This document shows, piece by piece, positions 898 through 20,533 of a stretch of 34,540 nucleotides of DNA. The translations under genes were made by a program, and so were the position numbers. Source of the stretch: an uncultured Rhodospirillales bacterium (GTDB taxonomy: Bacteria > Pseudomonadota > Alphaproteobacteria > Rhodospirillales > CAJXLG01); the NCBI GenBank assembly GCA_913055885.1, contig CAJXLG010000006.1, forward strand, positions 1-34,540. Reading direction: 5' to 3'. Every line of letters begins with the position of its first letter. Position 1 is the stretch's first letter. The notes beneath the pieces were generated by a model. It was given only the letters and a program-made list of their open reading frames with translations, did no database searches and was not told where the DNA came from.

Positions 898-1671
898 ATG
901 ACGGACGCTGAGGACGGGGCGGCGGCCCGCATCCGGGCGGAAATGGCGCCCGAACGCGACGGGCCGCCCGTGGTCCCGCAAGTGCGCTACATTCTGTGCT
1001 CCGGGCCGCGCGTGGGCAGCGAGCTGGTGGCCGACGGACTCGCCGCCACCGGACGTGCCGGCCATCCCGTGGAATACCTCAACCAGCGCCACATCAACGC
1101 GTGGCTTGCGCGCACCGGCAACGGCAAGGCGGATTTCGCCGACTACTGGTACTTCCTCCTCACCCGCCGCAGCACCGCCAACGGCGTCTTCGGGATCAAG
1201 GCCCACTGGAACCATCTGTGGAATACCGTGGGCCCGGACGGCGCGGCGCGTTTCCTGGGCCAGTTCGACGCCTGCGTCCAGCTCTACCGGCGCGACCGTA
1301 TCGCCCAGGCCGTCTCCCTCCACCGGGCCATGGAAACGGATATCTGGCGGCTGGACGACGAAACCGCGGCGCCGGCGCGCGCCGGCTACGACGCACCGGG
1401 CATCGCCCGCGCCCTGCACCTCGCCCTGCGGCACGAGCACGGCTGGACGGCGGCCCTGGCGGCCACGGACCGGCCCGTCCTGGGCGTCGCCTACGAGGAC
1501 CTGGTGGCCGATTACAGCGCCACCATGCACCGCATCGCCGCCTTCCTGGGCCTCGACGACCTGGCGGCCGACGCCTTTGCCGCGCCCGTGGTAACGCGCC
1601 AGACGGACCCGGCGAAGGACACCTGGTACCGGCGGTTCCTGGCGGATGCGGGGCTACAGCCCCAGGACTGA
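898..1671 (+). CDS. Stf0-family sulfotransferase
   Basis: YILCSGPRVGSELVADGLAATGRAGHPVEYLN, then GVFGIKAHWNHLWNT and QLYRRDRIAQAVSLHRAMETDIW, match the Stf0 sulfotransferase pattern (PAPS-binding N-terminus). Confidence 0.8.
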   Translation: MTDAEDGAAARIRAEMAPERDGPPVVPQVRYILCSGPRVGSELVADGLAATGRAGHPVEYLNQRHINAWLARTGNGKADFADYWYFLLTRRSTANGVFGIKAHWNHLWNTVGPDGAARFLGQFDACVQLYRRDRIAQAVSLHRAMETDIWRLDDETAAPARAGYDAPGIARALHLALRHEHGWTAALAATDRPVLGVAYEDLVADYSATMHRIAAFLGLDDLAADAFAAPVVTRQTDPAKDTWYRRFLADAGLQPQD

Positions 1672-2694
1672 TTCCACGGCGCCGCGATCCAGGTCGTGGG
1701 CGCCGATGACCACGAGCCCCGGCGATTCCCCGTCGCGCCACGGGCGGTCGAAATAGTGGTCCAGCCGCCGGCCCACCCCCTGGAGCACCAGGCGCGCCGG
1801 CTTGCCGGCCACGCGGGCCGTGCCCTTGATGCGCAGCACGCCGGGAACGGCCAGGGCGCGTTCCACCCGCTCGGCCAGGGCGCCGGCATCGTCCGCCGGC
1901 GGTGGCGCCACGGCGAAGCTGGTGAAATCGTCGTGGTCGTGGTCGTGGTCGTCGTCCTCATCGTCGTGGTGCGACGGCCGGGCGTCCACGCCGTCCTCCA
2001 CGCCCTGGCCCAGCCCCAGCACCAGGGCCGGATCGAGCCGGCCGTGGGCGGCCGTCACGGCCTCCACGCCGGCCCGCAGGCCGCCTTCCACCGTGGTCCG
2101 CACGCGGTCCAGCGCCGCGTCGTCCAGGCGGTCCGCCTTGCCCACCACGGCCAGATCGGCGCAGGCGAGCTGGTCGGCGAACAGCTCCCCCAGCGGCGTT
2201 TCGTGGTCGAGGCTTTCGTCGGCCCGGCGGGCGGCGTCCACGGCGGCGGGATCGGCGGCGAACAGGCCGTCGGCCACGGCCGGGCCGTCCACCACCGCCA
2301 CCACGCCGTCCACGGTGGTGCGCGTGCGCACTTCCGGCCAGCGGAAGGCCTGCACCAGCGGCTTGGGCAGGGCCAGGCCGGAGGTCTCGATGACCATGTG
2401 GTCGGGCGGCGGGTCGCGGTCCAGGAGCTTCGTCAGCGTGGGCACGAAGGCATCCGCCACCGTGCAGCACAGGCAGCCGTTGGCCAGCTCCACCACGTCG
2501 TCGTCGGCGGGGCAGGCGGCGTCGCCGCAGCCCTTGAGGATCTCGCCGTCCACGCCCACGTCGCCGAACTCGTTGATGACGAGCGCCAGCCGCCGGCCGC
2601 CGGCATTGGCCAGCAGGTGCCGGATGAGGCTGGTCTTGCCCGCCCCCAGGAAGCCCGTGATGACCGTGACCGGTACGCGCCGTGCGTTGAGCAT
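1654..2694 (-). CDS. cobW: CobW-type GTP-binding metallochaperone
   Basis: Walker A GFLGAGKTSL, NEFGDVGVDGEIL, GCLCCTV metal-binding motif and an Asp/His-rich loop HHDDEDDDHDHDHDDF; located in a B12 cluster. Confidence 0.92.
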   Translation of the reverse strand: MLNARRVPVTVITGFLGAGKTSLIRHLLANAGGRRLALVINEFGDVGVDGEILKGCGDAACPADDDVVELANGCLCCTVADAFVPTLTKLLDRDPPPDHMVIETSGLALPKPLVQAFRWPEVRTRTTVDGVVAVVDGPAVADGLFAADPAAVDAARRADESLDHETPLGELFADQLACADLAVVGKADRLDDAALDRVRTTVEGGLRAGVEAVTAAHGRLDPALVLGLGQGVEDGVDARPSHHDDEDDDHDHDHDDFTSFAVAPPPADDAGALAERVERALAVPGVLRIKGTARVAGKPARLVLQGVGRRLDHYFDRPWRDGESPGLVVIGAHDLDRGAVESVLGL

Positions 2695-2880
2695 GCCTTA
2701 CCCTCTTTATACGCGATGTTTCGGGTCGCGCCGGAAGTTAGCCCGTATCTCTCACGGAGTCGATGGCCGTGAGCAATCCGGGCTGGATACGGGGCGGCCG
2801 CAACGGCCTGCGCTGCCGGCCTTCCTGTACGGGGTCTTGAACGTCGGCCGCCACCGTGGCATACATAGGTTATCCATTGT

Positions 2881-2940
2881 CCCCCGGCCGCGCGTTACCG
2901 GATTACCCATTGGCCGGTAGCCCGCCCCGGGGGATTTTTT
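2881..2940 (+). promoter_or_regulatory. terminator-like hairpin plus T6 just upstream of the NYN gene RBS (possible attenuator leader)
   Basis: Outer stem CCCCCGG (2881-2887)/CCGGGGG (2927-2933), inner stem TACCGG (2896-2901)/CCGGTA (2914-2919), followed by ATTTTTT to 2940, then CGGAGG and ATG at 2957. Confidence 0.45.
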
Positions 2941-2956
2941 GGTTCGGAGGCCATTG

Positions 2957-3649
2957 ATGCCCACCGCTGTTCTTGTTGACGCCGGTTTCTTCGTCAAACG
3001 CTTCTCCCACATCTACACCGACAAAAATCCGCATGATTCCCGGGCGGTGGCGCGCACGCTTCATCAGATGGCGCTCGCCCATCTCACGCAAAAAAAGGAC
3101 AACAGGGAAGAAAAAGAACGCCAGACACTCCATCGCATCATCGTTTATGATTGCCCGCCCCTCGATAAACGGGCCCACAAGCCCGTTTCCGGCGCGAGTA
3201 TTAATTTCGGAAAAAGCGATATCGCGCGTTTTCGGACCCTTTTTCATCAGGAACTTCGCAAACTTCGCAAAGTTGCTTTACGGCTGGGTGAGCTTGGCCA
3301 GGAAGATGGCTGGGTCTTGAAACCTCAATATACGAAACCTTTGGCCAATGGCACACTCAGGTCATCGGATTTAAACGACGACCACTTCAAGTACGGTGTC
3401 CACCAAAAAGGCGTGGACATGAAAATCGCCCTGGATATCGCAACGCTGTCTCTCAAGGGGCAAGTGGATCAGATCGTTCTGGTTGCCGGGGATAGCGATT
3501 TTGTCCCTGCTGCCAAACAGGCTCGTCGGGAAGGGGTCGATTTCATTCTCGATCCCATGTGGAATCCCATTTTGCCCTCCCTCAATGAGCATATTGACGG
3601 CCTTCGGTCCACGGCGCCCAAGCCGGGTGGTGCTGACACCAAACCATGA
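2957..3649 (+). CDS. NYN (LabA/DUF88-like PIN-fold) domain protein, putative RNase
   Basis: Starts MPTAVLVDAGFFVKRF; later VDMKIALDIATLSL and QIVLVAGDSDFVPAAKQARREGVDFIL, i.e. the conserved acidic residues of NYN nucleases. RBS CGGAGG before ATG 2957. Confidence 0.82.
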   Translation: MPTAVLVDAGFFVKRFSHIYTDKNPHDSRAVARTLHQMALAHLTQKKDNREEKERQTLHRIIVYDCPPLDKRAHKPVSGASINFGKSDIARFRTLFHQELRKLRKVALRLGELGQEDGWVLKPQYTKPLANGTLRSSDLNDDHFKYGVHQKGVDMKIALDIATLSLKGQVDQIVLVAGDSDFVPAAKQARREGVDFILDPMWNPILPSLNEHIDGLRSTAPKPGGADTKP

Positions 3650-3676
3650 ACGGTCTTTCCGGTCGCTGAGAGCGTG

Positions 3677-4699
3677 ATGGCTGCTCTTCCCAACGTCACG
3701 GCTCCGGTCCCCCACGGCGGCGACCTGGAACGCGCCCGCCGGCGCTTCGGCGAGCCGGACGCCGGCTGGCTGGACCTGTCCACGGGCATGAATCCGTGGC
3801 CCTGGCCGGTGCCGGCCCTCGATCCCGCCGTGTTCCATGACCTGCCCGACGCCGGCCGGGAGGCGCGCGTGGCCGCCGCCGCGCGCGCGTATTACGGCGC
3901 GCCGGAAGGCGCCGGCACGGTGCTGGCGCCGGGATCGCAGATGCTCATCCAGCTCCTGCCCCTCGTCCTGCCGCCGGGCAGGGTCGCCGTGGTGCATCCC
4001 ACCTACGGCGAGCACGCCCGCTGCTGGGCCCTGGCCGGGCACGACGTGGTGCTCATCGACGATCCCGCCGACATGCCCGGCGACGCCTGCGCCCTGGTGC
4101 TCGCCAACCCCAACAACCCGGACGGCCGGCGATGGGCGCCGGAAACCCTCGTCGATCGGGCGGCGACCATGGGCTGCCGCGCCGCCCTGATGGTGGTGGA
4201 CGAGGCCTTCGCCGACGTGGCGCCGGGGGCCAGCGTTGCCCCGTGGACGGCCGACACCGACCGCCTGCTGGTGCTGCGTTCCTTCGGCAAGTTCTTCGGG
4301 CTGGCGGGGCTGCGCCTGGGCGTGGCGCTGGGGGCGCCGCGCTGGACGGGCGCCCTGGCGCAGCGGCTGGGGCGCTGGGCCGTGAGCGGCCCGGCCCTGG
4401 CCGTGGCGGAGCGGGCCTATGCGGACACGGCGTGGATCGACGCCACGCGCGACGCCCTGGCCCGCGCCCGTGCCGACCTGGAAGCCCTGCTCACGGACGC
4501 CGGGCTCACCGTCCCGGGCGGCACGGACCTTTTCGTCCTGGCGGAACATCCCGACGCGGCGGCACTGGAGGCGCACCTGGGCCGCCAGGGCATCCTGGTG
4601 CGCGCCTTCCGCGACCATCCGGCGTGGCTGCGTTTCGGCCTGCCGCCCGACGCCGCCGCCCGCGAACGCCTGCGCGCCGCCCTCAGCAGCGGTCCATGA
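3677..4699 (+). CDS. cobC: threonine-phosphate decarboxylase / aminotransferase-fold PLP enzyme of B12 synthesis (CobC; CobD in Salmonella naming)
   Basis: PHGGDLERARRRFGEPDAGWLDLSTGMNPWPWP, LANPNNPDGR, VVDEAFADVAP, LLVLRSFGKFFGLAGLRLG (PLP-lysine motif). Confidence 0.9.
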   Translation: MAALPNVTAPVPHGGDLERARRRFGEPDAGWLDLSTGMNPWPWPVPALDPAVFHDLPDAGREARVAAAARAYYGAPEGAGTVLAPGSQMLIQLLPLVLPPGRVAVVHPTYGEHARCWALAGHDVVLIDDPADMPGDACALVLANPNNPDGRRWAPETLVDRAATMGCRAALMVVDEAFADVAPGASVAPWTADTDRLLVLRSFGKFFGLAGLRLGVALGAPRWTGALAQRLGRWAVSGPALAVAERAYADTAWIDATRDALARARADLEALLTDAGLTVPGGTDLFVLAEHPDAAALEAHLGRQGILVRAFRDHPAWLRFGLPPDAAARERLRAALSSGP

Positions 4700-5975
4700 G
4701 GTGCAGGAAGGAGCCGGCGACGGGGCCCACGCGCCGGCCGAGGAAGCCGCGCGGATTGCCCCGCGCGTCCCACGCCTCGGCGAAGGCCTCGCCGGGGCCC
4801 TCCGCCACCACCGTGGCGTAGTGGAACTCGTGGCCGCGCACCCGCGTCCCGTCTTCCGTCAGGCGTGCCGCGCGATAGCCCAGGTGCAGCCGGCGCCGGG
4901 CGAAGGAGGTGGTAAGGGGGAGGAGACCGGCCATGCGGTGGTGCGTGCCGTCGGCGTCGATGAGCCCTTCGCCCAGGGCCATGTAGCCGCCGCACTCGCC
5001 GTACACCCGCGCCCCCCGTCTGGCCGCCGCGTGCAGGCCGGCCCGGAAGGTTGCGTTCGCCGCCAGCCGGCCGGCGTGCAGCTCCGGATAGCCGCCCGGC
5101 AGGTAGACGGCGTCGGCATCGGCGTCCGGGGCCTCGTCGTTGAGGGGCGAGAAGGGCACCGTCTCCGCCCCGGCGCGCCGCCAGCCGTCCAGGACGTGGG
5201 CGTAGGCGAAGGCGAAGGCGGCGTCATCGGCCACGGCGATGCGCTGCCCCGGCGGCGGCAGGGGGGCGGGCGGCGCTGCCGGCGCCGGATCGGGCCCGGC
5301 GGCGGCGCGCACGGCGGCCAGGTCCACGCCCTCGCGCACGCGGTCGGCGGCCGTCGCCAGGGCCTCTTCCAGCCCGGCCTGCTCGGCGGCGGGAACAAGG
5401 CCCAGGTGGCGCGACGGCAGGGCGAGGGTGGCGTCGCGCGCCAGCGTGCCAAGCACCGGAACGCCCAGCGCGGCCACGGCCTGGCGCAGGGTCTCGGCGT
5501 GGGCACCGCCGCCCACGCGCGTGAAGATCACCCCGGCCAGGCGCACGCCCGGGTCGTGGTCGCGGAAGCCGCGCACCAGGGCGGCGGCGGAGGCCCCCTG
5601 GCCCGTCCCGTCCACCACCAGCACCACGGGCCAGCCGGTGCGCCGGGCGAGGTCGGCGGTGCTGCCGGAGCCGGCGGCGCCCGCCCCGGGCGCGCCGTCG
5701 AACAGCCCCATGACGCCCTCCGCCACCACCAGGTCGGCGCCGGCCGCCGCCCCGGCCAGCAGGCCGTCCACCACGGCGGGGCGCATGGCCCAGGTGTCCA
5801 GGTTGACGGCGGGCCGGCCGGCGGCGTGGGCGAGGAAGCGCGGGTCGATGTAGTCGGGGCCCGTCTTGGCCGGGGCGATGCGCAGGCCGTCCGCCGCCAG
5901 GGCGGCGCACAGGCCGGCGGTGGCGACGGTCTTGCCGCCGCCGGAGGCGGGCGCGGCGACGAGGAGTCCGGGCAC
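4683..5975 (-). CDS. cobB: cobyrinate a,c-diamide synthase (CobB/CbiA)
   Basis: N-terminal LLVAAPASGGGKTVATAGLCAAL, KTGPDYIDPRF; C-terminal glutamine amidotransferase segment YLPGGYPELHAGRLAAN, YGECGGYMALG. Confidence 0.93.
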   Translation of the reverse strand: MPGLLVAAPASGGGKTVATAGLCAALAADGLRIAPAKTGPDYIDPRFLAHAAGRPAVNLDTWAMRPAVVDGLLAGAAAGADLVVAEGVMGLFDGAPGAGAAGSGSTADLARRTGWPVVLVVDGTGQGASAAALVRGFRDHDPGVRLAGVIFTRVGGGAHAETLRQAVAALGVPVLGTLARDATLALPSRHLGLVPAAEQAGLEEALATAADRVREGVDLAAVRAAAGPDPAPAAPPAPLPPPGQRIAVADDAAFAFAYAHVLDGWRRAGAETVPFSPLNDEAPDADADAVYLPGGYPELHAGRLAANATFRAGLHAAARRGARVYGECGGYMALGEGLIDADGTHHRMAGLLPLTTSFARRRLHLGYRAARLTEDGTRVRGHEFHYATVVAEGPGEAFAEAWDARGNPRGFLGRRVGPVAGSFLHLMDRC

Positions 5976-5978
5976 GGC

Positions 5979-6386
5979 CTATTCCTCGAACGGGCTGCCG
6001 CCGAAATCGCGCCGGGCGGTGGAGATGGTCACGGTGAAGCCGCCCACCACGTCCGCCGCCGTCATGAGCATGATGAGGAAGACCACCGCGTTGCCCATGG
6101 GGGCCACCAGCAGGAACTCCAGAAGGAAGATGACGAAGACCAGCGTGGACAGGACGTGGTCCAGGATGGAGATGGAGCCGCTGCGCGTCGCCTTGAGCAG
6201 CTCCACGTAGAGCAGGACGACGGAAATGGCGAGCAGCACGTGACCGCCGGTCATCTTCCACGTCGCCCCCGACACCAGGGGCACGGCGAACCACACGCCC
6301 TCGAAGGCGGCCGGCGCGGCGAAGGCGAAAAGATTCACCAGCACCAGCATGAAGGCGAAGAGCGGCAGGGCGCGCAGGTACGACAT
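5979..6386 (-). CDS. small integral membrane protein of unknown function (about 4 TM helices)
   Basis: 135 aa, strongly hydrophobic segments (ALPLFAFMLVLVNLFAF; VLLAISVVLLYVELL; LVFVIFLLEFLLVAPMGNAVVFLIMLM); stop codon only 3 nt from the cobB start, same strand. Confidence 0.7.
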   Translation of the reverse strand: MSYLRALPLFAFMLVLVNLFAFAAPAAFEGVWFAVPLVSGATWKMTGGHVLLAISVVLLYVELLKATRSGSISILDHVLSTLVFVIFLLEFLLVAPMGNAVVFLIMLMTAADVVGGFTVTISTARRDFGGSPFEE

Positions 6387-6484
6387 GACGGCCTCTCTGC
6401 TTGCGGGGTGTCCGGGATTGTCGGAGAGCCGGGCCGTTGGTGCAAGCGTTGACAGGCGGCGCGCCGGATCGCCATGAAGACCCC

Positions 6485-7543
6485 ATGAGCAAAAGCGCCC
6501 CCCCGCGCCGGGGCTGGACCACCGGGGCGTGCGCCGCGGGCGCGGCGCGCGCCGCCTGGACCGCGTGGACGGCCGGCGCCTTCCCCGACCCCGTGCCGTG
6601 CCGGCTGCCGGGCAACCGGGCGGCCCGGTTCGCCCTGGCCGCCCGCGGGCTGAATGCGGAGTCGGCGTGGGCCACGGTCGTCAAGGACGCGGGGGACGAT
6701 CCCGACGTCACCCACGGCGCCCGCATCACCGCCACGGTGGCGCCCAACCCGCCGGGCGCGGGCACCACCTTCCACGCCGGCCCCGGCGTGGGGACGGTGA
6801 CGCGGCCGGGCCTGCCCCTGGAGCCGGGGGAGCCGGCCATCAACCCCGCACCCCGGCGCATCATCGCCGACAACCTGGCCGCCGTGGGGGCGGGCGCCGA
6901 CGCGGCGGTGACCGTGGCCATCGAGGACGGGGAAACCCTGGCGGAACGCACCCTCAACCCCCGGCTGGGCATCGCGGGGGGCCTGTCGGTGCTGGGCACC
7001 ACGGGGGTGGTGGAACCCTGGTCGGCCGGCGCCTGGATCGCCAGCCTGCGGCAGGCGGTGAGCGTGGCGAAGGCGGGCGGATTCCGCCGCGTGGCCGCCG
7101 CCACGGGACGCACCAGCGCCGCCGCCGCGCAGGCGGAAACGGGGCTCAACGATGCCGCCGTGGTGGAGATGGGCGATTTCGCCGCCGCCTTCCTGCGCTT
7201 CCTGCGGCGCATGCCCGTGCCGCGCCTCACCCTGGCCGGCGGCATCGCCAAGCTGGCCAAGCTGGCGGCGGGACACGGCAGCCTGCACTCGGCGCACGCC
7301 CCCCTGGACCCGGGCGCCCTCGCCGCCTATCTCCCGGACAGGCCGGACACGGCGGCGGCGGTGGCGGCGGCCCCGACGGCGGCGGCCGCCCTGGCAACGG
7401 CGGAGACCGCCGGCGCGCCCCTGGCCGACCGCGTGGCGGCCGCCGCGCGCGCCGCCGCGCTGGCGCGCCTGGACGGCGCGCCCGTCGCCGTTGATGTGCT
7501 GGTGGTGGATCGGGCCGGCCGCATCGCCGGTCGTGCGGACTAG
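6485..7543 (+). CDS. cbiD: cobalt-precorrin-5B C1-methyltransferase (CbiD)
   Basis: RRGWTTGACAAGAARAA, DDPDVTHGA, NPAPRRIIADNLA, GLSVLGTTGVVEPWS, GDFAAAFLRFL; typical CbiD signatures. Confidence 0.93.
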   Translation: MSKSAPPRRGWTTGACAAGAARAAWTAWTAGAFPDPVPCRLPGNRAARFALAARGLNAESAWATVVKDAGDDPDVTHGARITATVAPNPPGAGTTFHAGPGVGTVTRPGLPLEPGEPAINPAPRRIIADNLAAVGAGADAAVTVAIEDGETLAERTLNPRLGIAGGLSVLGTTGVVEPWSAGAWIASLRQAVSVAKAGGFRRVAAATGRTSAAAAQAETGLNDAAVVEMGDFAAAFLRFLRRMPVPRLTLAGGIAKLAKLAAGHGSLHSAHAPLDPGALAAYLPDRPDTAAAVAAAPTAAAALATAETAGAPLADRVAAAARAAALARLDGAPVAVDVLVVDRAGRIAGRAD

Positions 7544-7545
7544 CC

Positions 7546-8298
7546 ATGCGCAAAAAACGCGTCCTCATCCTGGGCGGCACGGAGGAGGCCTACGCCCTGG
7601 CCAACGCCGTCCGCGACATGCACGGCCTGCAGGCCGTCACCTCGCTCGCCGGGCGCACCAGCGACCCGCGCGAGCCGGCGGGCGAGGTGCGCCGGGGCGG
7701 CTTCGGCGGCCGGCGCGGCCTGGAGGACTACCTGAAAAGCGAGAAGGTGGACCTGGTGGTGGATGCCACCCACCCCTTCGCCACCGCCATGAGCCGCCAC
7801 GCCCACGCCGCCTGCGAGAATCTGCGGGTGCCCAAACTGCACGTGGAGCGCCCGCCGTGGGAAGAGAAGGCGGGCGATGCCTGGGTGCGGGTGTCCGACA
7901 TGACCCGCGCCGCCGACGCCCTGGCCGACCACCCGGGGGTGAGCTTCCTCACCATCGGGCGGCAGGAACTGGGCGCCTTCCGCCGCTGGCCGGGGCGCAC
8001 CTTCCTCGTCCGGCTGGCGGAGACGCCCGGGGAACCGCTGCCGCTGCCCGAGGCCAACGTCATCCTGACCATCGGCAAGGGCCCGGAGACGGTCTCCGGC
8101 GAGGCCCTTCTGATGACGCGCCATGCCGTCGCCAGCCTGGTGACGCGCAACAGCGGCGCCGAGAGCGGCCGGCCCAAGCTGGAGGCGGCCCGCCAGCTCG
8201 GCATCCCGGTGATCATGGTGGAGCGCCCGCCGCCCCCCGGCGGCCCGCGCGCGCCCGACGTGGCGGGCGCCGTGCGATGGCTGAAGAAGCAGCGGTGA
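7546..8298 (+). CDS. cobK: precorrin-6A reductase (CobK/CbiJ)
   Basis: VLILGGTEEAYALA, DLVVDATHPFATAMSRHA, FLTIGRQEL, LVTRNSGAESGRPKLEAARQLGIPVIMVERPP; directly follows cbiD. Confidence 0.92.
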   Translation: MRKKRVLILGGTEEAYALANAVRDMHGLQAVTSLAGRTSDPREPAGEVRRGGFGGRRGLEDYLKSEKVDLVVDATHPFATAMSRHAHAACENLRVPKLHVERPPWEEKAGDAWVRVSDMTRAADALADHPGVSFLTIGRQELGAFRRWPGRTFLVRLAETPGEPLPLPEANVILTIGKGPETVSGEALLMTRHAVASLVTRNSGAESGRPKLEAARQLGIPVIMVERPPPPGGPRAPDVAGAVRWLKKQR

Positions 8299-8404
8299 GG
8301 CCGGCCCTTAATGTGCGCCAGCGCACAGCGTCACACGGGCGTAACGGGGCATCCTGAAAACGCTGCCGGCCGTGGGGCCGGCTTTCGGACAATCGAGGCC
8401 CGCC

Positions 8405-8836
8405 ATGACGGCCGCTGAAGCGCCTGTCCCTGTTCCGGAAACCCTGAGCGCGCCGTCCGTCCGGGGCGGTCCGCCGCGCGGCGATCCCTTCCGGGCACCG
8501 GGCATGCCCAGTCTGTGTTTGGTGGTCCTGGACGACACGGCGGGGCGCGCCGTTTCCATGGTGCTGCTGGACGATTCCCGGGCCTGCTATGTGGTGGGCC
8601 GGAGCGGGCGCGGCGGTGTCGCGCGGGACGTGGACGTGGGCCTGCGGGACCCCGCCCTTGCCCATCGGCACTGCGAACTGGCCTGGGACCCGCAGTACGG
8701 CTGGCACGTGCGCGACCTGCACAGCGGCGGCGTGCATGTGGACGGCCTGCCCGTTCCGGACTGGGCACCGCTGGCGGACGGCAGCACCCTGACCGTCGGC
8801 GGCACCCGCATGAGCATCCAGCTCAAGGAAACCTGA
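8405..8836 (+). CDS. FHA-domain protein
   Basis: YVVGRSG...DVDVGLRDPALAHRHCELAWDPQYGWHVRDLHSGGVHVDGLPV...LADGSTLTVGGTRMSIQ: GRS...(S/A)..H and strand pattern of an FHA fold, though the canonical SRxH reads ALAHRH. Confidence 0.65.
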   Translation: MTAAEAPVPVPETLSAPSVRGGPPRGDPFRAPGMPSLCLVVLDDTAGRAVSMVLLDDSRACYVVGRSGRGGVARDVDVGLRDPALAHRHCELAWDPQYGWHVRDLHSGGVHVDGLPVPDWAPLADGSTLTVGGTRMSIQLKET

Positions 8837-9779
8837 GGGCCACGGCCCAGCCGGCCACCACGGCCGCCAGGATGCCGCAGGCCCGCACCAGCACCCCCAG
8901 GGCGGCGCGCGCGTGCGCCGCCCCCGCCTGTTCGCCCGTTTCGTTGAGCCACGGGTCGTCGGCCGTGTGGCCGGCATAGTGGCGCGGGCCGGCCAGGGCC
9001 ACGCCCAGCGCCCCGGCCATGGCGGCCTCGGGCCAGCCGGCGTTGGGGCTCCTGTGGGCGCCGCCGTCGCGCCACGCGGTGCGCAGGGCGCGCGGCCCGC
9101 GCCGGCCGGCCGCCGCCGCCAGGAGGAGCGCCGCCAGGCGCGCCGGGATCAGGTTGGCCAGGTCGTCCAGGCGCGCCGCCGCGAGGCCGAAGGCGCGATG
9201 GCGCGCATCGCGGTGGCCGAGCATGGAATCGCAGGTGTTCAGGGCCTTGTAGGCCGCCATCCCGGGCAGGCCGGCGAGGGCGAAAAAGAAGACGGGGGCC
9301 GCGACGCCGTCGGCGAAGTTCTCGGCGGTGGTCTCCACGGCGGCGCGCGCCACCCCGGCGTCGTCCAGGCGCGCCGGATCGCGGCCGCAAACCCGTCCCA
9401 CGGCGGCCCGCGCGGCGGCCGTATCGCCCCGGGCCAGCGGCGCCGCCACGGCCGCCACGTGATCGTAAAGGTCGCGCTGGGCCACCAGGGTGAAGGCAAG
9501 GACGGCCTCGGCGATCCCCGGCAGCGGGCCGGGCAGCGGGGCCAGCGCCCGCGCGATCCCCCACGCCGCCCCGGCGGCGGCGCCCACCACCACCAGCACG
9601 GCGACGCCCCCCAGCCCCCGGCGGCGGCTGTCGCCGCCCCGGTTCCAGGCCCGTTCCAGGGCCCCCGCGGCCCGCCCGGCGAGCACCACGGGATGGGGCA
9701 CGCGCGCCCACAGCCACGCCGGATCGCCCGCCACGGCGTCCAGCACGAGGGCCAGCAACAGGATTTCCGGGCGGGTCAT
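8823..9779 (-). CDS. cbiB: adenosylcobinamide-phosphate synthase (CbiB; CobD in Pseudomonas naming)
   Basis: LLLALVLDAVAGDPAWLWARVPHPVVLAGR, DDAGVARAAVETTAENFADGVAAPVFFFALAGLPGMAAYKALNTCDSMLGHR, RSPNAGWPEAAMAGALGV. Confidence 0.95.
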   Translation of the reverse strand: MTRPEILLLALVLDAVAGDPAWLWARVPHPVVLAGRAAGALERAWNRGGDSRRRGLGGVAVLVVVGAAAGAAWGIARALAPLPGPLPGIAEAVLAFTLVAQRDLYDHVAAVAAPLARGDTAAARAAVGRVCGRDPARLDDAGVARAAVETTAENFADGVAAPVFFFALAGLPGMAAYKALNTCDSMLGHRDARHRAFGLAAARLDDLANLIPARLAALLLAAAAGRRGPRALRTAWRDGGAHRSPNAGWPEAAMAGALGVALAGPRHYAGHTADDPWLNETGEQAGAAHARAALGVLVRACGILAAVVAGWAVALRFP

Positions 9780-9850
9780 TGACGCCCTCCGCCGTGGACC
9801 CGGGTGAGCGAATCTGGGAAGATGGCGGCCTGAACGACGGGCACCGTACC

Positions 9851-10057
9851 ATGGACCGTGCACACTTGGTCCGACGGGTGCGTCGGTTGGGACGGCAAAG
9901 GGAGGTTGCCGTGCGATGGGTCGCCGAGCGGGGCAAAGGGTCGCACGGAACCCTTTATTTCGGTGACCGCAAGGCCATCGTACCGGCTGGCGAGCTGAAA
10001 CGCGGAACCCTGCGGGCCATCTGTCGGCAACTGGCCATCGACCCGGACGACCTCTGA
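9851..10057 (+). CDS. hicA: HicA-type toxin (mRNA interferase), type II toxin-antitoxin
   Basis: Short 68-aa ORF with GKGSHGTLYFGDRKAIVPAGELKRGTLRAICRQLAID: the G.GSH catalytic His region and the L..GTLR.I..QL.I ending of HicA. Confidence 0.85.
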   Translation: MDRAHLVRRVRRLGRQREVAVRWVAERGKGSHGTLYFGDRKAIVPAGELKRGTLRAICRQLAIDPDDL

Positions 10058-10069
10058 GGGGCGACAGTG

Positions 10070-10495
10070 ATGGACTATCTGTATCCCGTAACCCTGGAGC
10101 CGGACCCCGACGGCGGTTTCGTGGTGACCTGTCCCGATCTGCCGGAGGTGGTGACCCAGGCCGACGACGAGGCCGGCGCCCTGGCGGGCGCCGAGGATGC
10201 CGTCGCGGAAGCTCTGGCCAGCCGGCTGGCTCACGGGGAATCGGTGCCCGCGCCGTCGACGGCCGGCGGCGGGCCTGTTGCCGGCCCGGGGCCGGTGATG
10301 GCGGCCAAGGCCGCCCTGGCCGACGCCATGGCCGGCGACGGGGTGACCCGTGCCGACCTGGCGGAACGGCTGGGCGTCGCGGCGGATGACGTGGAACGCC
10401 TTCTGAACCCCCGGCACAACACCCCCATCGAGCGTCTGGCGGCGGCCCTGCGTTGCCTGGGGCGCCGCCTCACGGTTGGGGTGGACGCCGCCTGA
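10070..10495 (+). CDS. hicB: HicB-type antitoxin with C-terminal HTH
   Basis: YPVTLEPDPDGGFVVTCPDLPEVVTQADDEAGALAGAEDAVAEAL (HicB fold), C-terminal RADLAERLGVAADDVERLLNPRHNTPIERLAAALRCLGRRLTV; 12 nt after hicA. Confidence 0.88.
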   Translation: MDYLYPVTLEPDPDGGFVVTCPDLPEVVTQADDEAGALAGAEDAVAEALASRLAHGESVPAPSTAGGGPVAGPGPVMAAKAALADAMAGDGVTRADLAERLGVAADDVERLLNPRHNTPIERLAAALRCLGRRLTVGVDAA

Positions 10496-10626
10496 TACCA
10501 ACGGCCCTGGAACGGGACTCGCCGGTGCTTGCCACAACCGCGGTAAGGCGGGGCCGGAAGCGGCGTTACCTGGGCTCCCACCCGGATGGGGGAGGGTCGG
10601 GGGCCGATGGCATGATGCCCCGCCCC

Positions 10627-12093
10627 TCATCCGTCCACCTCCCCGGCGGTACGCCACAGCGCATCCAGGTCCAGGGCGCCTTCCAGGCGGCGGGCGATGG
10701 CGTCGAGGGCGGCCTCCACACCCGCTTCGTGGGCCTGTTCGGCGAACACCCCGACCCCCAGGCGGTCCAGGAAGGCGCGGCGGAAGGCATCGTCCGTGAA
10801 GAGGCCGTGCAGGTAGGCGCCCATGACGCGGCCGTCGGGCGAGGTGGCGCCGCCGTCGCCGCCGCCGATGACCAGGGGGCGGGCCGTGTCGGGCCCCGTG
10901 GTGCGGCCCACGTGCATTTCGTAGCCGGCCACAGGCGCGCCCAGCGCAGTGCCGCGCGCCGGGCGCAGGGTCTTGTCGCCCGTGAGCACCGTCTCCACGG
11001 CGAGCAGGCCCAGCCCTTCCGTGGTCCCCGGTTCCCCCTCGATACCGTCGGGGTCGGCCACCGTGCGCCCCAGCATCTGATAGCCGCCGCACAGCCCCAG
11101 GACGGGCACGCCCTGCCGCGCCAGGGCGCGGAGGTCCGTGGCCCAGGCCGTGTCGAAGAGCATGGCGAGGTCGGCCCGCGTCGCCTTGGAACCGGGCAGC
11201 AGCACCAGGTCGGCGTCCAGGGGCAGGGGCTGCTCCGGCGGCACCACGGCCACCGTCACGTCCGGCTCGGCGGCCAGGGGGTCCAGGTCGTCGAAATTGG
11301 CAATACGCGCCAGGCGGGGCACGGCGATCTTCACGGTCCCGCCACCGCCTTCGCCGCCGCGCGGCCGCTCCAGGGCCACGGAATCCTCGGCCGGCAGGCG
11401 CGCCGCTTCCGGCATGTGCGGCACCACGCCCAGGCAGGAAAGGCCCGTATGGTCGCTCATGATGGGCAGGGCGGAGTCGAAAAGGGCGGGATCGCCGCGC
11501 AGCCGGTTGATGATATAACCGGCGAGCAGGGCGCGGTCGCCGCCGTCCAGCAGGGCGTGGGTACCCACGATGGACGCCAACACCCCGCCCCGGTCCACGT
11601 CGCCGATGAGCGCCACGGGCACGTTGGCGGCGCGCGCGAAGCCCATGTTGGCGATGTCGCCGGGGCGCAGGTTCATCTCCGCCGCGCCGCCGGCCCCTTC
11701 CACCAGCACCAGGTCGGCGTCGCCCGTGAGGCGGTGGAAGCTCTCCAGGACGGGATCCAGGAGGGCCGCGCGTTCCGAGTGATAGGCGCGGGCCGAGAGG
11801 CTGCCGCGCACTTCGCCGTGCACCACCACCTGGCTGCCCGCCTCCGCCTGGGGCTTGAGGAGCACGGGATTCATGTCGATGGCCGGCGGCACGCCGCAGG
11901 CGCGCGCCTGAAGGGCCTGGGCGCGGCCGATCTCGCCGCCGTCGGCGGTGACGGCGGCGTTGTTGGCCATGTTCTGGGGCTTGAAGGGCCGCACGGCGAG
12001 GCCCCGGCGTGTATAGGCCCGCGCCAGCCCGGCCAGCAGGACGGACTTGCCCACGTCCGAGCCCGTTCCCTGGAGCATCAGGGCGCGGGTCAT
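10627..12093 (-). CDS. cobQ: cobyric acid synthase (CobQ/CbiP)
   Basis: [74 protein letters not shown] amidotransferase Cys. Confidence 0.96.
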
Positions 12094-12124
12094 GGGGATG
12101 CCTCCGGCCGCCGTCGCGGAACGT

Positions 12125-12275
12125 CGTCTTTCGAGGCGTTTGCCGGGGGCAAAAGCACCTCATCTTTCGAGGCTTTTGCCGGGGGCAAAAGCACCTCAAG
12201 ATGACGATGATGGGCGATCCTTGTCGTCATCCCGAGGCGCCTCCGCCCCGTCAGGGGCGGAGCCTCGAGGGAGGA
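12125..12275. repeat. compound REP-like element: two tandem 36-bp copies plus a third related hairpin
   Basis: 12125-12160 and 12161-12196 are identical except 2 positions (CRTCTTTCGAGGCKTTTGCCGGGGGCAAAAGCACCT). Each contains (C)TTTGCC..GGCAAA(A)G. Third unit GTCATCCCGAGG...CTCCGCCCC-GTCA-GGGGCGGAG-CCTCGAGGGAGGAC (about 12226-12275). Confidence 0.85.
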
Positions 12276-12289
12276 CACGGGGCGACGAG

Positions 12290-16042
<3,753 letters not shown>

Positions 16043-16582: not shown

Positions 16583-16598
16583 CACGCGGGCCCGCGTG
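16583..16598. promoter_or_regulatory. perfect 16-bp palindrome CACGCGGGCCCGCGTG between rhodanese and binding-protein genes
   Basis: Read directly; located between the rhodanese start (16524) and the 3' end of the upstream binding-protein gene (16623). Confidence 0.5.
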
Positions 16599-16622: not shown

Positions 16623-17639
16623 TCACGGCAGGGCGGGCGCGCGGATGGCGCCGCCGTCGCGGACGAGGCGGTTGGGCCCGCGCGGCACGGGAACGGCGCC
16701 GTCGGGCCCGAAGTAGCGCGCATAGATCCCGCCGTAATTGCCCACGGCGGCGATGGCCCGGCGCAGCCACCGGGCATCGGGGGCCAGATCCCCCCACACG
16801 GCGCCCTCGGCCCCCAGCAGGCGGCGGGTGCGGCTGTTGCCGTCCGCCGCCCGGTCGGCCACGTTGGCGCGGGTGATGCCGTAGCGTTCCGCCAGCACCA
16901 GGCCGTTGCGCAGCCAGCGCACCAGCTTGAACCAGCGCCAGGAGTCGGCGCGCACGGCGATGCTGTTGCCGCCCCGGCTGATGGGGTCGGGGAAGATGAC
17001 ATAATCGTCCGGCCGGCCGAGGAAACGCGCCTTGATGATGTGCAGCGCCAGGGTGTCCGTGGCCAGGAGGTCGCAGCGGCCGGAAGCCAGGCCCTCCACG
17101 GCCATGCGGTAGCTCGCCACCGTTTCCACGCGCAGGTCGATGCCGTGGGTCCGGGCGGCGCGGCGCAGGTTGCGCTGCGCCGTGTCCGCCTTGACCAGGC
17201 AGGCCGTGGCCGCGTCCACCCCGGCCAGGCGTTCGGCCCCCAGGTCGCGCCGCGCCAGCACCTTCTGGCCGAACAGCAGCCAGGGAGTGACGAAGGTGAC
17301 GGGCCGGGCCGATTCGCGGGCCGCCGTGCCGCCGATGCCGCTCATGAGCACGTCGAGATCGCCGGCCGCCAGCCGGTCCAGGCGGTTTTCCGGCAGCACG
17401 GGCACGAAGCGCACGGCGTCCGCGTCCTTGAGCACCGCCGCCGCCAGGGCGCGGCAGAAGGCGACGTTGAAGCCGCGCCAGGGGCCTTCCGCCGTCTGGC
17501 GGGACAGGGGGCTGCCGCCGTTGTGGACGCCGCAAACCAGTTCGCCCCGCGCCTGCACCCGGGCCAGGGTGTCGCCGGCCGCCGCCCGGCCGGCCAGCAG
17601 CAAAAGCGCCGCCGCCAGAGCCAGCCCCCATGGTTTCAT
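16623..17639 (-). CDS. periplasmic amino-acid-type solute-binding protein (AapJ-like, SBP family 3)
   Basis: Signal peptide MKPWGLALAAALLLLAGRAAA; RVQARGELVCGVHNGG...GPWRGFNVAFCRALAAAVLKDADAVRFVPVLPENRLDRLAAGDLDVLMSG; GRCDLLATDTLAL; PISRGGNSIAVRADSWRWFKLVRWLRNGLVLAERYGITRANV, AapJ-like. Confidence 0.85.
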   Translation of the reverse strand: MKPWGLALAAALLLLAGRAAAGDTLARVQARGELVCGVHNGGSPLSRQTAEGPWRGFNVAFCRALAAAVLKDADAVRFVPVLPENRLDRLAAGDLDVLMSGIGGTAARESARPVTFVTPWLLFGQKVLARRDLGAERLAGVDAATACLVKADTAQRNLRRAARTHGIDLRVETVASYRMAVEGLASGRCDLLATDTLALHIIKARFLGRPDDYVIFPDPISRGGNSIAVRADSWRWFKLVRWLRNGLVLAERYGITRANVADRAADGNSRTRRLLGAEGAVWGDLAPDARWLRRAIAAVGNYGGIYARYFGPDGAVPVPRGPNRLVRDGGAIRAPALP

Positions 17640-19519
17640 GTCGCCTCCCCGTGGTCCGGTGTCGTGGCTTCCGCCGCCGGCGCGTGGGCCGGGAAGCGGA
17701 TGACGAAACACGCGCCGCCCGCCTCGGTCGCGCCCACGGCCACTGTACCGTTCAGCGGCCCGGTGACAAGGTTGTGCACGGTGCTCAGCCCCAGGCCGGG
17801 ATGGCCGTCGGCGCGGCGCGTGGTGAAGAAGGGCTCCAGCACCCGCTCTCCCGCCCCTTCCGGCAGGCCCGCCCCGTCGTCGCCCACCGCGAGGCGCACA
17901 TGGGTGTCCGGGCGGTCCGGATCGGGGCCGGCCGTCACGGTGACGGTGCCCGCCGCGCCCGCCGGCCATGCGTGCTGGGTGGCGTTGCGCACCAATTCCG
18001 TCACCACCCGGAACAGGACGTCGGGATAGAGGGTGGCTTCCAGGCCGGGCGACGCGTCCAGCCGGACATCGTGGTCCGTCCGGGGCAGCCCCGGCCCCAG
18101 GGCCGCCAGGCACTCGCCCAGATAGGTGGCGAGGTCCAGGCGCCGCGGCCGCTCGTGGCCCTGGTCGGCGGCCACCTCCTTGAAGCTGTCCACGAGCCGC
18201 GCCGCCCGCTCCGTGTTGCGCACCAGCAGATCGCCGCTCTCGCGCAGGGTGGCGAGGCCGTCCTGCAACTGGCGCCGGGTCAGGCGGCCTTCCGCGAAAG
18301 CCGCCTCCAGGGCCTGTACCTGGTCGCGCATGTGCGATCCGGCGGACAGGGCCGTGCCCACGGGGGTGCCCAGCTCGTGGGCCATGCCGGCGACGAGATG
18401 CCCCAGGGCGGCCATCTTTTCCGCCTGGACCAGGGCGGCGCGCGCCCGGCGGGCGTCGGCCAGGGCGTCCTCGGCGGCGTTGCGGGCGCGCGCCAGGGCC
18501 TTTTCCCGCCGGCGCAGGCGGCGCACGAAGATGTCCAGGCCGCGCGCCAGGTCGGCGAGTTCGTCGTTGCCGCCCAGGCGCAGGGGCGCGTCGCGGCCGG
18601 CCGCCGTGGCGCGCACGTTGCGGGTGAGGGTGCGCAGGCGCCGGAACACCCGTCGGCGCAGGAAGAGCATCAGCCCCAGGGTGGCGGTCACCGCCGCCAC
18701 GGCGGCCCCGCCCAGGCCCCAGGCGGCGACCACGGCGAGGCGACCGGCGGCGCCGGCCTGTTTCTCCACGCGGTCCTGGACGGTGTGCAGGAAGGCCCAG
18801 GCGGTGCCCGTGAGCCGGAGGGCCGTGGCCTCCATGTTGCGGTGGGTGCCCCGCAGGGCCCGGCGCGTTGCCAGCAGGTCGGCGCGCACCCGGAAAGCGC
18901 CGTCGGCGCCGGTGCCCAGCGGGGCCAGGGCGCGCCGCTGCGGGGGCGACAGGCCCGCCAGGGCGGTTTTGAAGCGGTCGCGCAGGCGGTCCAGGCGGTC
19001 CCTGTCACGGGCGGTCAGGGCACGCGCCACCAGGGCCCGGGCCCGCGCCGCGCCGGCGGCCGGCGCATCGTCCGGCGCGGGCAGGGCGCGGCCGATGGCC
19101 GCCAGCCGCCGGCGGCGCGCCAGGCGCCGGCGCACCAGGCGGGTCAGCCGATCGACGCGCTCGCCCAGGCGGCGGCGAAGGGCGGTGAGCCGATCCAGGC
19201 CGGCGCCGTCGGGGCCGGCCAGGCCGTCGATGAGGCCGCCCAGGGTGTCCAGGCGGTCGCGCAGGACGGTGGCGGCCGTGTCGGCGCTGCCGCTGTCCCG
19301 GGCGAAGACCAGGGTGGGGATATAGGCGGTGACGGCCTCCGCCTGCCGGGCCAGACGGCTGGCCTCGACGATGCGGGGGACGCGCATGTCGTTCAGGGTG
19401 TGGATGTCGGCGCGCAGGGCCAGGGCGACGGCCACCGCCGCCCCCGCGATGGCGGCCAGGATGACGGCCTGGACGCCGTAGGCGGTGGCCAGGCTGGCGC
19501 TTATGCCGAAACGGGGCAC
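17636..19519 (-). CDS. transmembrane sensor histidine kinase (TorS-like helical sensor, HAMP, HisKA, HATPase)
   Basis: GTG start at 19519 (VPRFGISASLATAYG...). Second TM LAVVAAWGLGGAAVAAVTATLGLMLF, HAMP, H-box EKMAALGHLVAGMAHELGTPVGTALS, N/G boxes ELVRNATQHA, VGDDGAGLP, FFTTR...GLGLSTVHNLV. ATGA overlap with the binding-protein gene. Confidence 0.88.
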   Translation of the reverse strand: MPRFGISASLATAYGVQAVILAAIAGAAVAVALALRADIHTLNDMRVPRIVEASRLARQAEAVTAYIPTLVFARDSGSADTAATVLRDRLDTLGGLIDGLAGPDGAGLDRLTALRRRLGERVDRLTRLVRRRLARRRRLAAIGRALPAPDDAPAAGAARARALVARALTARDRDRLDRLRDRFKTALAGLSPPQRRALAPLGTGADGAFRVRADLLATRRALRGTHRNMEATALRLTGTAWAFLHTVQDRVEKQAGAAGRLAVVAAWGLGGAAVAAVTATLGLMLFLRRRVFRRLRTLTRNVRATAAGRDAPLRLGGNDELADLARGLDIFVRRLRRREKALARARNAAEDALADARRARAALVQAEKMAALGHLVAGMAHELGTPVGTALSAGSHMRDQVQALEAAFAEGRLTRRQLQDGLATLRESGDLLVRNTERAARLVDSFKEVAADQGHERPRRLDLATYLGECLAALGPGLPRTDHDVRLDASPGLEATLYPDVLFRVVTELVRNATQHAWPAGAAGTVTVTAGPDPDRPDTHVRLAVGDDGAGLPEGAGERVLEPFFTTRRADGHPGLGLSTVHNLVTGPLNGTVAVGATEAGGACFVIRFPAHAPAAEATTPDHGEAT

Positions 19520-19550
19520 TGGCGTTGCTCTATGTGGCGCGAAAACGGTC

Positions 19551-20120
19551 TTATCCGGCGGCGGCACCGTAAGCCCGATCGGCCCGTTCCGCGTCGGCGA
19601 CGATGAGCCCGGCTGCGTGCCTCTGCAGGCGTCGCCCATTTTCCGCCATTATGAAGCCGACCATGATTCCCGGAAGCACCAGGATCGTCACGATGCTCAA
19701 TATTGCACTCAGGCCCGGTGAGCGCATCAGGAAGGCGATGGTCAAATCCTGGATAACGCGGTCCCGGATCTCCGCCGTTTTTTCGCCAACATCGGAGCGC
19801 GCCGTCAGCGTATCCAGCAACCTTTTGCGTTCCCGCGGCATCCCCGCCAAAATCAGATAGGCGACTAGGCGCGGCCAAGTCATCTGATGGACGAACCGTA
19901 TCAGGACTTCCAGTTCATGCCGGGCCTGGCGGTAGGCCGGCTCGTCAAAAGCGAGGGCCATGCCGGGACCGGCCAGGTCGAAAAGCGCGTCCCGCGCGAC
20001 AAACAGCCGCTCCCGCGTCCATTCGGTCCAGAAAGTCTGCCAGGGCCCGTACACAAGTCCGACCAACAGGAGAAGCGCGAAGACCAGGACGATCCCTTCC
20101 GGGGTGACCTCTCCGGCCAT
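19551..20120 (-). CDS. membrane protein of unknown function (189 aa)
   Basis: N-terminal TM (GIVLVFALLLLVGLVYG) and C-terminal hydrophobic segment (LSAILSIVTILVLPGIMVGFIM); AT-richer than flanks; 11 nt after the preceding gene. Confidence 0.65.
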   Translation of the reverse strand: MAGEVTPEGIVLVFALLLLVGLVYGPWQTFWTEWTRERLFVARDALFDLAGPGMALAFDEPAYRQARHELEVLIRFVHQMTWPRLVAYLILAGMPRERKRLLDTLTARSDVGEKTAEIRDRVIQDLTIAFLMRSPGLSAILSIVTILVLPGIMVGFIMAENGRRLQRHAAGLIVADAERADRAYGAAAG

Positions 20121-20131
20121 GACGTTCCCTC

Positions 20132-20533
20132 CTAATAATCATCCCGGGGATGGGTTGTGCCGTCCTTTTCCAGTCCGCTTGATGAGCGGTCGGGATCCAG
20201 CCGACTTTCCAGCCGTTGTATGGTCCCGCTCATGCGCCTGTTCTGCCGGCGGCGGAAAAAGCGTTCGCCAACGGCCCAGGTGACCGCCACGCCCGCAAGC
20301 GCCAGGGCCCCGCTGACAGCCAGACCACACCGCGTGCCGCTGAACCAGTCAACAACAAAAACCGCGCTGGTATCTTTGCCGGCCAGTGCCTCGACCATGT
20401 ACCGAAGCTGGTACACCAGCCACCCCAGGAAGCCAAACCGGGCAACCTTGTTGATCAGGTTGGTCAGGACATCGGCCCAGACAACCCAACCAGGGCCGGT
20501 GTGGCGCGGTTCGTTCTTATCATCCTGCACCAT
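20132..20533 (-). CDS. membrane protein of unknown function (133 aa)
   Basis: Hydrophobic segments FGFLGWLVYQL and CGLAVSGALALAGVAVTWAVG; charged tail RMSGTIQRLESRLDPDRSSSGLEKDGTTHPRDDY. Confidence 0.65.
   Translation of the reverse strand: MVQDDKNEPRHTGPGWVVWADVLTNLINKVARFGFLGWLVYQLRYMVEALAGKDTSAVFVVDWFSGTRCGLAVSGALALAGVAVTWAVGERFFRRRQNRRMSGTIQRLESRLDPDRSSSGLEKDGTTHPRDDY

Follow-up and report, generated by a model that had tools for sequence, protein, structure and literature searches.

What does an amino-acid-type binding protein do when its gene is coupled to that of a sensor kinase and no transporter lies nearby? This question is raised by four genes within a 34,540-nucleotide stretch of DNA (the window) from an uncultured Rhodospirillales bacterium, whose family holds one genome. 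A preliminary description had proposed that two membrane proteins (here P1 and P2), a TorS-like histidine kinase and an AapJ-like periplasmic binding protein form a single sensory operon. All four minus-strand open reading frames are real, with the positions and spacings first described (Table 1): P1 and P2 are separated by 11 nt, the GTG of the kinase gene follows 31 nt beyond P2, and the kinase stop codon overlaps the start codon of the binding-protein gene as ATGA. Their strand was scanned for terminator-like sites, and none separates the four genes. The set is flanked by trxA upstream (20917-20600) and by a rhodanese gene (16524-16120) and cobN downstream; as had been remarked, neither a permease nor an ABC ATPase or response regulator was detected next to it. 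Elsewhere in the window (1654-16042), a run of open reading frames resembles cobalamin biosynthesis genes, cobN having been assigned by Pfam and the others by eye.

Table 1 Features of the gene set, in window coordinates.
Feature	Position	Strand	Basis
P1, membrane protein, 133 aa, member of putative passenger pair	20132..20533	-	beside P2 in 5/5 other loci; phrog_27816, 2e-6
P2, membrane protein, 189 aa, member of putative passenger pair	19551..20120	-	beside P1 in 5/5 other loci; phrog_13156, 1.1e-11
Sensor histidine kinase, 627 aa, GTG start	17636..19519	-	Pfam HATPase_c 1.7e-17; motifs; profile versus PDB; AlphaFold and Foldseek
AapJ-like periplasmic binding protein, 338 aa, signal peptide	16623..17639	-	SBP_bac_3 5.2e-12; PDB 4z9n 4.8e-48
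Weak terminator-like hairpin, after the binding-protein gene	16583..16598	-	consensus scan only

The four genes look like two modules rather than one four-gene system. All have syntenic homologues elsewhere, as two separate pairs. GC3 is 0.93 in the genes for the kinase and binding protein and 0.72 and 0.75 in the membrane genes, so the greater AT-richness noticed earlier in the latter is real. P2 was found in five other genomes of the order; in each of them P1 lies next to it, in differing surroundings and unaccompanied by this kinase. A viral contig of 84 kb likewise carries the pair without the kinase, next to a transposase-like open reading frame, and the two genes are AT-richer than every host locus (window 19551-20533; L079-L083; L251). 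A pair conserved elsewhere without the kinase, AT-richer and carried on a viral contig argues for passengers, a reading that the preliminary description had itself entertained and that proves the better one. We regard P1-P2 as probably a mobile passenger pair, unrelated to the kinase and binding protein. The two PHROGs that they match are of unknown function; searches of Pfam, PADLOC and phage records returned no match, and none of the TorS-type kinase loci examined contains the pair. The predicted model of P2 is uncertain (pLDDT 70). The pair is possibly a mobile or phage-borne module.

The kinase possesses two transmembrane helices, a TorS-type helical periplasmic domain (approximately residues 38-262), a HAMP domain (286-336), a HisKA-like region carrying His381 and a HATPase domain (500-611), and its kinase motifs are intact. 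No receiver domain was found in its 627 residues; hence, it is not a hybrid kinase. An alternative in-frame ATG exists at 19639, and the GTG at 19519 is preferred as fitting both the usual distance to the first transmembrane helix and the homologues. The likening to TorS is borne out for the sensor domain. Taken alone, the window sequence matches Pfam TorS without significance (E 0.17), whereas homologous linked sensors score down to E 3.4e-10, several of them beyond the Pfam cut-off. A family profile built from twelve sensor regions, the window's included, gave the TorS structures 3i9y and 3o1h/3o1i/3o1j as its top PDB matches (E 1.5e-5, profile positions 51-277), the next standing at 0.016. 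An AlphaFold model of residues 1-336, built with 31 sequences, reached a mean pLDDT of 93.5. Foldseek placed TorS sensor domains first for this model (3i9y, E 1e-3, TM 0.65 on target), ahead of the other helical sensors NarQ and PilJ; since helical bundles match easily, this is support and not proof. A plasmid search with the kinase returned matches to the kinase core only.

The binding protein is AapJ-like, as had been described, by its SBP_bac_3 family profile, by its closest solved structure (4z9n) and by a kept ligand clamp. AapJ-like homologues, approximately 29-39% identical, occur in most genomes of the order. Arg108 and Asp195 are conserved, at positions that are invariant in transporter-linked AapJ and that in this fold hold the carboxylate and amino group of the ligand; several residues near the arginine, in the Arg loop, deviate. 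The ligand is likely to be amino-acid-like.

The apparent lack of a transporter for this protein extends beyond the locus. AapQ, AapM and AapP are absent from beside its gene, and no amino-acid ABC permease (TIGR01726) exceeded the cut-off in the draft genome (2.96 Mb in 393 contigs, 88.6% complete), by a search that was positive in 11 of 14 control genomes. The single sub-threshold match adjoins an ABC ATPase with a CBS domain, which we take to be the arrangement of glycine-betaine transporters. SBP_bac_3 has three matches in the genome, one of which, on contig C161 (L088 3041-4891), is fused to a histidine kinase. Receiver domains were matched 83 times in the genome, but never next to the kinase, and none of the matches could be named its cognate response regulator; nor did kinase paralogues with a similar core point to a common regulator.

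Adjacency of kinase and binding protein, which the preliminary description had set as a test of its proposal, is present in relatives. AapJ-like loci of the order were collected by binding-protein similarity and classed by their neighbours. A TorS-type receptor lies within 1.2 kb at 9 of 20 permease-less loci (excluding the window and one locus fetched via its kinase; 11/22 with both) and at 0 of 59 permease-linked loci. Fisher's test gives p 8e-7, although the loci are related and the figure is to be read as a strong contrast rather than a calibrated probability. The reverse search started from the sensor profile; of 385 genomes of the class, 64 gave such sensors. An AapJ-like gene was adjacent in 12 of the 40 loci examined from this side, a share that may be high given that the profile derives mostly from sensors linked to binding proteins. 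Most of these loci thus have no AapJ-like neighbour; among the remainder the neighbours include eight Peripla_BP_6, two DctP and one Peripla_BP_4 proteins. The binding-protein gene comes first in 14 same-strand pairs, the genes are divergent in eight, and only in the window does the kinase come first. Linked TorS-type receptors have kinase, hybrid-kinase or, at L140, GGDEF outputs.

Several of the loci surveyed merit description in their own right. At L140 (3375-5996), the gene of an AapJ-like protein is followed by one that joins a TorS-type sensor domain to a GGDEF diguanylate cyclase domain, and the same input unit may there drive a c-di-GMP output. At L216 (168-7241), aapJ-aapQ-aapM stand next to another aapJ-like gene, a divergent one, and to the gene of a TorS-type kinase, which makes the locus a candidate for a transporter-to-sensor duplication; the binding protein L216_2629 was rejected as TorS-linked, having its own AapQ and AapM. 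L071 was likewise rejected as a kinase-linked locus, its neighbour having many transmembrane helices and an MMPL-like look. At L072 (2874-5540), an AapJ-like domain lies towards the C-terminal side of an 888-residue open reading frame with a caspase-like-looking N-terminus, adjacent to kinase-like open reading frames. Transporter-less AapJ-like genes of Caulobacter (L007 5881-6963 and L008) lie amid sulfur-amino-acid-like genes (sulfurtransferase, cysteine synthase), a context that hints at a sulfur amino-acid ligand in that branch. In one family (L093, L109 and L110), genes for a hybrid kinase and a response regulator precede the AapJ-like genes, the kinase having been read without its N-terminus.

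Phylogenetic analysis divided the binding proteins along the same line as their neighbours. In a tree of 46 rows, comprising 22 permease-linked proteins drawn at random and 24 TorS-linked ones, the two groups separate with a support of 100/100 and the window protein lies on the TorS side; with L216_2629 counted as permease-linked, the distribution requires one single change. The window protein has the longest branch in the tree and a deviating composition, and forcing it to the permease-linked side gave a p-AU of only 0.03. Distances between binding proteins and between sensors are correlated when 23 pairs are taken (r 0.80), but the 16 most diverged pairs show no correlation (r 0.02). With this loss among diverged pairs, the distances give no sign of co-evolution over and above common descent.

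How far can other explanations account for these observations? The binding protein might belong to a transporter, with the permease and ATPase encoded in a part of the genome that the draft lacks; the kinase would then be a chance neighbour or a regulator of that transporter. The incompleteness of the draft leaves room for this, most AapJ homologues in the order are linked to transporters, and adjacency of a binding-protein gene and a kinase gene does not always mean a functional link; AgtS and AruS, indeed, do not interact with the binding proteins whose genes lie near theirs (PMC11113362). Nevertheless, the permease search succeeded in most control genomes and found nothing over its cut-off here, and the protein groups with TorS-linked rather than transporter-linked relatives, so that we consider this explanation unlikely. 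Somewhat less likely still is that the kinase senses its ligand directly through the helical domain, in the manner of NarQ or PilJ, beside a degenerate or independent binding protein. The structures of NarQ and PilJ do match the kinase model, and the binding protein is strongly diverged; yet both match less well than TorS, which is best by profile and by fold, the clamp residues are kept, and the pairing recurs in many loci.

The shared strand, short gaps and uninterrupted run of the four genes would also suit one sensory operon in which P1 and P2 serve the kinase as accessories. Against this, five genomes and a viral contig have the pair unaccompanied by this kinase, its AT content exceeds that of every host locus, and the TorS-type kinase loci searched do not contain it. 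We therefore hold the four-gene operon to be very improbable, and this part of the preliminary description is not supported.

Its other part, that the binding protein has been repurposed as the sensor of its kinase, fares better. A TorS-like domain, an AapJ-like partner, the lack of a permease over the cut-off, the recurrence of the pairing and the tree make the sensor idea a well-supported inference. Taken together, the fold families, kept clamp residues, intact kinase motifs, recurrent adjacency and failure to detect an amino-acid ABC permease lead us to believe that the binding protein and kinase probably constitute a binding-protein-dependent two-component receptor that serves as a nutrient sensor. 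Of the characterized couples of this kind, 10 of 11 are encoded by adjacent genes (PMC11113362). The AapJ-like protein would be exported to the periplasm and there close on an amino-acid-like ligand. In its closed form it may then dock on the TorS-type helical domain of the translationally coupled kinase, altering autophosphorylation, and phosphate would pass to a response regulator encoded elsewhere; P1 and P2 would play no part in signalling. The docking, the ligand class, the sign of the signal and the unlinked regulator are elements that we infer.

It is tempting to extend this reading beyond the window. The transporter-free AapJ branch could represent a periplasmic sensor of TorS-type receptors across Alphaproteobacteria-like relatives, with varying outputs (kinase, hybrid kinase and, in one locus, GGDEF) and partner classes (AapJ-like, Peripla_BP_6, DctP and Peripla_BP_4). 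If so, TorS-type domains would offer binding proteins a general platform on which to dock; we judge the case for this wider proposal to be evenly poised. For most sensor kinases the signal has yet to be identified, and if the branch does mark the sensor of TorS-type receptors, the ligand could be found via the soluble binding protein. What annotation now calls AapJ transporter components would moreover in many cases be sensors.

Comparison with known systems places the proposed receptor among several partial precedents. As in TorT/TorS, which senses TMAO, a binding-protein gene adjoins that of a kinase whose sensor domain is helical and of TorS type. However, TorT belongs to the type I (LacI-like) binding proteins, whereas the partner here is AapJ-like and of the SBP_bac_3 family; and the TorS family model is a sensor histidine kinase/response regulator, whereas the window kinase has no receiver domain. 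With AapJ of the AapJQMP general amino-acid transporter the binding protein shares its sequence family and ligand-clamp residues, but AapQMP is neither adjacent nor detected in the genome, and the protein falls outside the transporter-linked group. BvgS-type kinases with a built-in SBP_bac_3 domain likewise have an amino-acid-type clamshell feeding a histidine kinase, there as part of the kinase and here as a separate protein. The nearest amino-acid case is GlnH-GlnX-PknG of Actinobacteria, in which an amino-acid-type binding protein is proposed to signal to a kinase (PMC6069109); that kinase is a Ser/Thr kinase reached via a separate membrane protein, whereas here the TorS-type histidine kinase is itself the membrane receptor. 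No paper on AapJ-type partners of TorS-type receptors was found among the open-access papers searched. Receptor activation by binding proteins is already established, as in TorT/TorS; what stands out here is that a TorS-type receptor has an AapJ-type partner, with a presumptive sensory function, and that this pairing is widespread.
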